From Eubacterium ventriosum (GTDB lineage Bacteria > Bacillota > Clostridia > Lachnospirales > Lachnospiraceae), in NCBI RefSeq assembly GCF_025150745.1, contig NZ_CP102282.1, forward strand, positions 2,732,501-2,796,500: a stretch of 64,000 nucleotides of DNA, in the 5' to 3' direction. A program made the position numbers and the translations under genes. Of the stretch, positions 4,380 to 57,449 are shown in pieces (within the stretch, counting starts at the first letter, position 1; each line of letters opens with the position of its first letter). The notes below the pieces were generated by a model that did no database searches, was not told where the DNA came from, and saw only the letters and a list, made by a program, of their open reading frames with translations.

Positions 4380-4478
4380 AATACAAAGCAAATATAGAAA
4401 TGTAATATTCATAAATTACTGATTGCAAGATTCCAGTGGCTTTTAGAATCCTTAATCAATCTACGATAATTACGCTCC

Positions 4479-4598
4479 TGTCTTCTCTCATCCAGACTTT
4501 ACTGTCGGTTATGGATTCACACCATATCATGCCATTGGCTCGCTGACTTATGCATTCGCAATCACAGCCGGTAGGGAATTTCACCCTGCCCCGAAGAA
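4479..4598 (-). promoter_or_regulatory. FMN (RFN) riboswitch aptamer
   Basis: The minus strand carries the RFN signature blocks in order: CTTCGGGGCAGGGTGAAATT near the 5' end, CCTACCGGC, then GCGAGCC, GTGTGAATCC, CCGACAGT and GTCTGGATGAGAGAAGA at the 3' end. These match the canonical FMN aptamer. It sits upstream of the ribU attenuator, so riboflavin uptake should be switched off by FMN. Confidence 0.95.
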
Positions 4599-4619
4599 TT
4601 TTTTAATTTTTACTATGTC

Positions 4620-27938: not shown

Positions 27939-27975
27939 AAATGATGTTAGTTTAATTGCTGACATCATTTTTTAT
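27939..27975 (+). terminator. Terminator of the hydrogenase operon
   Basis: AATGATGTTAG pairs with CTGACATCATT (one G-U, 8-nt loop), followed by TTTTT. Confidence 0.85.
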
Positions 27976-28026
27976 GTCTTTTAACTACAGGTATCCTTTC
28001 CAAAAATATACATAATTATATTTTCA

Positions 28027-28097
28027 CTTTACAATAGACGGCGGAGCAAAATAAGAAAAGCAACGTGTTTGCATGCAGCCCTTTTCCGGCGATACTA
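28027..28097 (+). repeat. Decayed copy (right half) of the 185-bp structured repeat
   Basis: About 70 bp beginning CTTTACAATAGACGGCGGAG and containing AACGTGTTTGCA match the right half of the elements at 36673-36857 and 54874-55058. The left arm and central hairpin are missing or unrecognisable. It sits between convergent terminators. Confidence 0.75.
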
Positions 28098-36672: not shown

Positions 36673-36857
36673 GGAATCACCAGAGATAGGCTACCTAGCA
36701 AATAATAGTCAGATTTTTGAAATTTTGCGAGTATAGTGTAAGGCGTAAAACCTACTGTCTGAGCCATAGGCGAGTTTAGGTTTTCGCCTTACAATAGACG
36801 ACAAAGCAAAATAAGAAAATCAATGTGTTTGCAGGCAGTCTATCTCTGGTGAGTTCC
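36673..36857 (+). repeat. 185-bp structured repeat, copy B
   Basis: The ends pair (CACCAGAGATAG with CTATCTCTGGTG, within ~20-bp imperfect arms). A central hairpin pairs GTAAGGCGTAAAACCTA with TTTAGGTTTTCGCCTTAC around the loop TGTCTGAGCCATAGGCGAG. Intermediate segments also pair (AGCAAATAA region with GTGTTTGC region). Same length and architecture as the element at 54874-55058. No coding capacity. Confidence 0.85.
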
Positions 36858-54577: not shown

Positions 54578-54637
54578 TATTTCCTCCAAATAAATGTTTT
54601 ATCTTGCTGTCTTGCATTAAGTATACCCACAACCTGC

Positions 54638-54762
54638 TTCCGTTTCAATTCATCCAATTTCCAACTTAAAACGGAAAAACATCACCTTCACTACCCCAAC
54701 TTCCGTTTCAAAACGGAAACCCATTTCACACCACTGTCACACATTTCCGATTCAAAACGGAA
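54638..54762. promoter_or_regulatory. Palindromic operator array TTCCGTTT-CA-AAACGGAA
   Basis: A perfect 18-bp dyad (54701-54718), a one-mismatch copy TTCCGATT-CA-AAACGGAA (54745-54762), and two separated half-sites TTCCGTTTCA (54638) and AAAACGGAA (54668). They lie upstream of the IIA gene and probably bind the divergently encoded PRD activator. Confidence 0.75.
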
Positions 54763-54873
54763 AAAAATACATTTGCTCTTTAAAGCCAGATATCATATAC
54801 TAATACTATAAAAACCAAACTATACTATTATAAAGTAATAGTAGAAATACAAATTTAGATTATTGCAATATTA

Positions 54874-55058
54874 CCTGTATTTCACGGAAGTTTTAGTGTG
54901 CAAACAATAGGCAGATTCCCGAAGTTTTGTGAGCATAGCGTAAGGCAAAAAACAACTGTCTGAGCCGTAGGCGAGTTTTGTTTTTTGTCTTACTGTGGGC
55001 GGCGGAGCAAAACAAGGAGAATCAACGTGTTTGCCACAAAACTTCCGTGGGATACAGG
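54874..55058 (+). repeat. 185-bp structured repeat, copy C
   Basis: The ends pair (CCTGTATTTCACGGAAG with CTTCCGTGGGATACAGG). The central hairpin pairs GTAAGGCAAAAAACAA with TTTTGTTTTTTGTCTTAC around TGTCTGAGCCGTAGGCGAG. A side stem joins GTGTGCAAACA with GTGTTTGCCAC. Same length as copy B. It sits 43 bp upstream of the PRD-activator start codon. Confidence 0.85.
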
Positions 55059-57029: not shown

Positions 57030-57053
57030 AAAAGTCAAAGTTCATATATTAAT

Positions 57054-57086
57054 AATGGCAAGCACTAAGTATAATGCTTGCCATTT
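57054..57086. terminator. Bidirectional terminator
   Basis: AATGGCAAGCA pairs with TGCTTGCCATT (10-nt loop), followed by TTAAC on the plus strand and TTATTAATA on the minus. It separates convergent genes. Confidence 0.7.
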
Positions 57087-57089
57087 TAA

Positions 57090-57449
57090 CTATATTAAAC
57101 TTCTTATATACGTCGCTAATTTCAGAGCCTCTTTGTTTTTATTTCTTCTAAATATAACTGCATAATCATTAGTAACAGCTCCAAATATTGTATACGGTGC
57201 AAATACCACTATTAACAGTGATGTAATTGCAGCAAAAATTGGCTTTTTGTATATCACTGACAGCATCATCGTAATATACACAATTACTAACATTACAAAA
57301 GATAGCAAAACAGAATTTACAAGAGTGACTTTTACATTATAATTGTTTTTTAATATTGATGATGACACTATATAATACATATTATATATAACAAATACTG
57401 GAAATGACATTCCTGCACTATAAACAATTGATTTTGAATGTAGTAACAT
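57090..57449 (-). CDS. Hypothetical membrane protein, possibly a remnant
   Basis: About 119 residues from the ATG at 57449, with three hydrophobic helices and a basic tail (FRRNKNKEALKLATYIRSLI). No ribosome site precedes this ATG; the frame extends upstream only to a TTG at 57506, inside the terminator of the next gene. The protein may therefore be the 3' part of a longer membrane protein that lost its start. No family recognised; low confidence that it is expressed. Confidence 0.35.
   Translation of the reverse strand: MLLHSKSIVYSAGMSFPVFVIYNMYYIVSSSILKNNYNVKVTLVNSVLLSFVMLVIVYITMMLSVIYKKPIFAAITSLLIVVFAPYTIFGAVTNDYAVIFRRNKNKEALKLATYIRSLI

Follow-up and report, generated by a model that had tools for sequence, protein, structure and literature searches.

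What kind of element leaves two 185-nt copies in which the stems differ in sequence and still pair within each copy? The question arises from a window of 64 kb (64,000 nt, the whole stretch of Eubacterium ventriosum DNA analysed here), in which a sequence-only reading had placed two such copies with outer arms, central stems and a loop. All of these features were verified. Copy 1 occupies 36673-36857 and folds at -81.4 kcal/mol (z -11.6); copy 2 occupies 54874-55058 and folds at -85.6 kcal/mol (z -9.0). Both are given on the plus strand, as delimited by inverted repeats and folding, and none of 200 shuffles folded as well. The proposal that the copies share a 185-bp layout held for the length and for the pairing within each copy, whereas homology did not extend beyond a core of ~135 nt (positions 25-160 of the query); the ~25 nt beyond it at either end are unlike between copies 1 and 2, yet paired inside each.

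Structure of the window copies

In copy 1, the conserved core (36697-36833, plus strand; 149.4 bits with covariance model R1) is flanked by locus-specific arms at 36677-36696 on the left and 36833-36852 on the right, which form an inverted repeat matched at 18 of 20 positions. Conserved alignment columns within the core mark an internal loop whose 5' side is GAGTATAG (36729-36736) and whose 3' side (36793-36805) reads AATAGACGACAAA where the family consensus is AATARRCGGCGSA; the apical motif, TGTCTGAGCC..GGCGAGTT, is located at 36756-36776. The parts of copy 2, likewise on the plus strand, are a core at 54899-55035 (140.6 bits with the covariance model), inverted-repeat arms at 54874-54894 and 55038-55058 (19 of 21 positions matched) and an apical motif at 54957-54977. 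A decayed third copy, chiefly the 3' part of the core, was recognized on the same strand at 27957-28073 by a score of 25.5 bits (E 0.0003) and a partial BLAST match, and no left arm was visible there by eye.

The arm matches of copies 1 and 2 were rivalled in the window only by a short-loop hairpin at 57044-57095 (18 of 21), and the two copies were the only inverted repeats in the 64 kb in which at least 15 matched pairs enclose a spacer of 41-300 nt. The same scan, run on a sample of the genome, undercounts, because it missed a copy known to lie in that sample (L218). About three TTCCGTTTCAAAACGGAAA-like palindromes were also seen at ~54630-54770 of the window, flanked by ORFs that by eye resemble PTS components (minus strand) and a PRD-type regulator of 642 aa (plus strand).

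A dispersed family in the Lachnospiraceae

The search of the full genome and of related Lachnospiraceae that the sequence-only reading had proposed recovered a dispersed family. The window's genome, a single 2.86-Mb contig, yielded 36 matches to copy 1, of which 30 were near full length and six partial, with 40 of the 61 candidates scored. In a survey that scored at most eight candidates per genome under stricter filters, so that copy numbers are lower bounds and E-values are rough, a covariance model of the core matched at E ≤0.001 in 57 of 397 Lachnospiraceae genomes, representing 53 of 334 genera; the best score reached at least 60 bits in 23 of the 57 carriers (hand count). The 22 genomes of congeners gave 0-3 BLAST matches each, against 36 in the window's genome, counts that overlook partial copies where contigs of G007 and G008 end. 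Several short-read contigs stop inside or near the hairpin (L101, L104 and many RGIG1650 contigs among L068-L097), and the element is therefore probably undercounted in MAGs.

By mechanical ORF calls, the copies in the window's genome were intergenic, except for three spanned by minus-strand ORFs, and only one of the 29 with an ORF on both sides lay between divergent genes. Their orientation relative to genes was mixed; relative to replication it was about 23 versus 13 of the 36, which was not significant in a hand count that placed three copies near skew switch points on the majority side.

This widespread structured repeat is real, and no counterpart was found in Rfam (the element had no match above gathering score for the window, for copy 1 up to E 5 or for 20 other loci) or, among the matches listed, in the openly licensed literature searched. 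No BLAST match was obtained in plasmid and phage collections, and the core pattern was present in 0 viral contigs. The window also carries an FMN riboswitch at 4476-4602 on the minus strand (RF00050, 106.4 bits).

When the phylum was searched for the apical motif alone, 15 of 398 genomes contained it, with up to 37 copies per genome, and its reversed pattern had no match among those listed. Most of 18 apical-motif loci from those genomes appeared by eye to form a single, very long hairpin built from different stems, and a wider superfamily of hairpins bearing this motif is therefore likely, although not proven. Seven contigs of the viral collection (L245-L251) also contained the motif, mostly inside long hairpins as judged by eye.

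Covariation and conserved loops in the core

We aligned 29 cores, comprising 18 from the window's genome, three from congeners and eight from other Lachnospiraceae, Eubacteriales or Blautia-labelled MAGs. The core is a single irregular hairpin of five helices with nearly invariant unpaired motifs: ATAGGCA, GAGYATAG opposite AATARRCGGCGSA, and the apical CTGTYTGAGC..GCGAGTTT. Two-sided changes were present in 29 of 39 core pairs (128 cells); by hand count, about 62 of the 128 were double transversions when the commonest pair was taken as reference. RNAalifold's own structure displayed such changes in 24 of 38 pairs. The five-helix structure, which was drawn from the same 29 rows that it was scored on, paired 90.8% of cells, compared with 36-52% when slid by 1-3 columns. 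None of 500 shuffled alignments equalled the real core on any of five measures, in a control that ignores relatedness although 18 of the 29 rows come from one genome.

The earlier reading had taken paired changes in the two copies as a sign of selection on a folded molecule. Genome-wide and across genera, paired changes were well above the shuffled and slid controls, and the argument carries over to the core (29 of 39 pairs, 0 of 500 shuffles) and not to the outer arms, which are mostly locus-specific. Because the paired changes lie so far above these controls, the core is probably selected as a folded single strand, either RNA or single-stranded DNA; covariation beyond chance is combined here with conserved unpaired motifs, as in a structured functional RNA or single-stranded DNA.

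When individual copies were compared, kept double changes exceeded independent expectation in several pairs (10 versus 5.0 in L012/L018; 8 versus 3.4 in L256/L257), and broken pairs numbered 14 against the 10 kept changes in L012/L018 and 8 against 4 in L003/L007. The rows for L069/L090 and L261/L262 may compare different hairpins, because there are two hairpins in each. On the given strand, G.T cells outnumbered A.C cells by 37 to 20 in the core and by 61 to 39 in aligned arms, an excess that is only suggestive because related copies are not independent.

Locus-specific arms

The arms lie outside both the covariance model and the pattern that located the loci in other genera. Of the 34 full-length copies of the genus, 33 had arms whose pairing with each other scored above the 99th percentile of cross-locus comparisons (the set comprised 30 near-full-length copies from the window's genome, two from G021 and one each from G002 and G009, which are an orthologous pair; partial copies excluded), the exception being L002, which has no arms. 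Outside the genus, 35 of 37 loci did so as well, one further locus of the 38 having no flank and related loci (L130/L131 and L073/L078/L098) being included. At 30-130 nt, the inverted repeat was still above the 99th percentile in 10 of the 34 genus copies and 6 of the 37 other loci. At 60-200 nt, none of the 34 genus copies was above control, indicating that long repeats are a minority, and at 100-300 nt none was in either set.

Perfectly matched arms reached 53 nt at L032 and 63 nt at L138, and the imperfect inverted repeat of L160 spans about 100 nt. At L014, a terminator-like hairpin is present as inverted copies on both sides, inside the inverted repeat, and at L159 both sides carry a palindrome that we take to resemble parS. 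Of the aligned arm positions, 659 of 707 were matched in the 25 nt nearest the core and 910 of 1138 further out, the latter figure being inflated by local alignment (L002 and L034 excluded). Two opposite hairpins lie near each other at L127, L139, L272, L273 and L275, in the same intergenic region or around a few genes.

Arms and cores appear to differ in history. Core identity and arm score were uncorrelated across 29 copies (Spearman 0.045, p 0.37), and L012 and L014, whose cores are 95% identical, scored 10 for their arms, lower than the average of 13.7. The left arms in the window's genome nonetheless follow a positional purine/A-rich consensus. With L002 excluded, 18 of 406 arm pairs were similar at ≥14 of 22 positions, compared with a mean of 6.6 in column-shuffled controls (0 of 200 as high); at ≥16 of 22 there were two such pairs, a number reached in 11 of 200 controls. 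The arms of L003/L007 and of L012/L018 are recognizably related, with paired changes. This consensus and excess similarity point to some common ancestry or target preference alongside a local origin of the arms.

The sequence-only reading had offered a MITE-like element or a structured RNA family. Dispersal and a folded core bore this out, whereas terminal inverted repeats common to the copies were not seen in the window's genome, where arms are mostly locus-specific; they occur elsewhere, in G264, G318, G389, G413 and RGIG1650/G418, as species-specific arms and outer inverted ends common to the copies.

Empty sites and partner genes

No clean empty site was found at L014, L034, L032 or L073/L078/L098. 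Both genes flanking L014 were aligned in 11 of 19 relatives, and by eye the core and the inverted terminator-like pair were absent from all 11; however, because these genes are only about 69-79% identical, the empty sites cannot trace either arm. The L034 copy is present in G002 and G009, and the contigs of G007 and G008 stop inside the hairpin; relatives at L032 are ≤77% identical. The rabbit-gut loci L073/L078/L098 share a neighbourhood, with insertion points that are not orthologous and intergenic DNA that could not be aligned by eye. The congeneric loci L104 and L034 share an identical stretch of ~140 bp that leads up to the core and enters it, whereas ~1 kb upstream is about 82% identical, which we read as recent recombination or strong constraint.

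Four core-less copies of the elements with shared arms, L161, L163, L167 and L192, were considered as ancestral empty palindromes and rejected; because they retain core pieces or have joins at short repeats, they are read as deletion products, although L163 and L167 could be ancestral. At the L043 locus (L223:4380-4560), 22-nt arms and the outer core are intact and the interior is deleted.

No mobilising enzyme was found. The Y1 transposase family (PF01797) had 0 matches in the window's genome and was present in 6 of 11 core carriers and in 7 of 11 genomes where the core was not matched, so that it does not track the element. The ORF adjoining L160 had no Pfam match, and six regions with close inverted copies, viewed by eye for a candidate autonomous partner, displayed ordinary-looking ORFs.

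Origin of the hairpins

The family is dispersed and combines a covarying core and nearly invariant loops with locus-specific arms and, at some loci, inverted repeats of 53-100 bp. As the best explanation, held tentatively, we propose a non-autonomous mobile hairpin in which the core would be selected in its folded form and the arms would mainly be inverted host flanks generated by fold-back copying or template switching. The ~135-nt core would act while single-stranded and folded, either as RNA or as DNA, and its conserved internal loops and apical motif would probably be bound by a putative trans-acting factor. Either the core hairpin would prime fold-back synthesis on the neighbouring strand or the replication fork would switch template there; the stem would grow outward at insertion, and the inner arm would be re-matched afterwards by the same copying process, which would be strongest beside the core, where arm positions are best matched. 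According to PMC8794818, hairpin stems can be both created and repaired by template switching. Since inverted copying of flanks can make paired arms without selection, paired arms alone are no proof of a selected RNA.

Several features of the sequences appear to count against this explanation. The positional consensus of the arms in the window's genome and their excess pairwise similarity would not be predicted by local copying alone, and in 12 of 30 copies arm and core are separated by a step of 5/4, 4/3 or 3/2 nt, which argues against exact fold-back, because that process would produce no step. The predominance of broken pairs over kept double changes in L012/L018 and L003/L007, the MITE-like shared arms in some genomes and the armless L002 point the same way. 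We regard as doubtful a version that would be a new mobile-element class with self-built inverted flanks, in which the core integrates while folded and single-stranded, its 3' end primes copying of the adjacent host strand and the resulting long, locus-specific stem is later re-templated, the apical motif marking a wider superfamily of hairpins of this type in the phylum.

The chief rival, rather unlikely in our view, is that existing palindromes, such as terminators or older palindromic repeats, receive the core at their apex and are thereby split into the two arms. The core does lie centrally between the arms, 29 of 30 copies in the window's genome leaving 0-5 unpaired nt per side, and several RGIG1650 copies adjoin terminator T-runs or short palindromes (by eye). 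Core-free palindromes also exist: 464 kb of the window's genome contained 21 palindromes with at least 15 matched pairs and a loop of ≤40 nt, two of them core parts. However, all of these had arms of ≤22 nt, in a scan that would miss long imperfect palindromes, against 53-63 perfect nt at occupied sites; the free palindromes are unlike the arm consensus (by eye); and inverted terminator copies flank L014 on both sides.

If the element were instead an old ordinary MITE, arms and core would move jointly through a transposase acting at the outer ends, the arms drifting fast with compensation and the cores being kept by selection and gene conversion. The common arms and outer inverted ends in G264, G318, G389, G413 and RGIG1650/G418 fit this scenario, as do the excess arm similarity in the window's genome and the related arms, with paired changes, of L003/L007 and L012/L018. 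Core and arm similarity are nevertheless uncorrelated, and in 10 of 34 copies the inverted repeat runs on at 30-130 nt into flank that is unique to the locus; we consider an old MITE unlikely. By eye, no target-site duplication was noticed in G264 or RGIG1650 copies. A chromosomal structured RNA with a cellular or cis-regulatory role, and only secondary mobility, seems very improbable given the uneven copy number (36 in the window's genome versus 0-3 in 22 congeners by BLAST, some partial copies missed) and the mixed orientation to genes and to replication (about 23 to 13), even though covariation and nearly invariant loops persist across genera, G.T exceeds A.C on the given strand of the core (37 to 20) and only 1 of 29 copies lies between divergent genes (mechanical ORFs).

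Relation to known elements and implications

Integron attC sites and retron ncRNA work as folded strands with flanking inverted repeats, as we propose for the element described here. With MITEs it shares a short, non-coding, palindromic form, many dispersed copies (36 matches around a ~135-nt core) and, in several genomes, outer inverted ends common to the copies; unlike MITEs, its arms in the window's genome are mostly unique to each copy, and its centre is a covarying fold common to elements with different ends. REP, REPIN and BIME elements are also extragenic palindromes in many dispersed copies, according to passages of PMC3733652, PMC3116915 and PMC2817692. However, REP-type palindromes are given as 20-40 bp in PMC3733652, whereas the present core measures ~135 nt and contains several internal loops, and no Y1 transposase match was found in the window's genome. 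The perfect stems made or repaired by copying one arm onto the other, as portrayed in sections of PMC8794818, resemble the arms proposed here, but those sections concern RNA genes generally, whereas we propose the process for the flanks of one dispersed core.

Two signals that are usually merged are now apart: paired changes indicative of selection, in the core, and flanking arms whose pairing could be produced by copying. Because dozens of copies surround a single core with arms graded in length and decay, the family provides a natural test set for asking whether bacterial hairpins are built by template switching, and in covariation tests for RNA genes such arms should not be counted as independent evidence of selection.

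Other repeats were noted at two further loci. A cluster of ATGTTTCACGTGAAACAT sites, presumably parS-like, lies at L214:5425-5860, and an array of inverted repeats, CTGTACCATAT/ATATGGTACAG, occupies L212:2400-2660.
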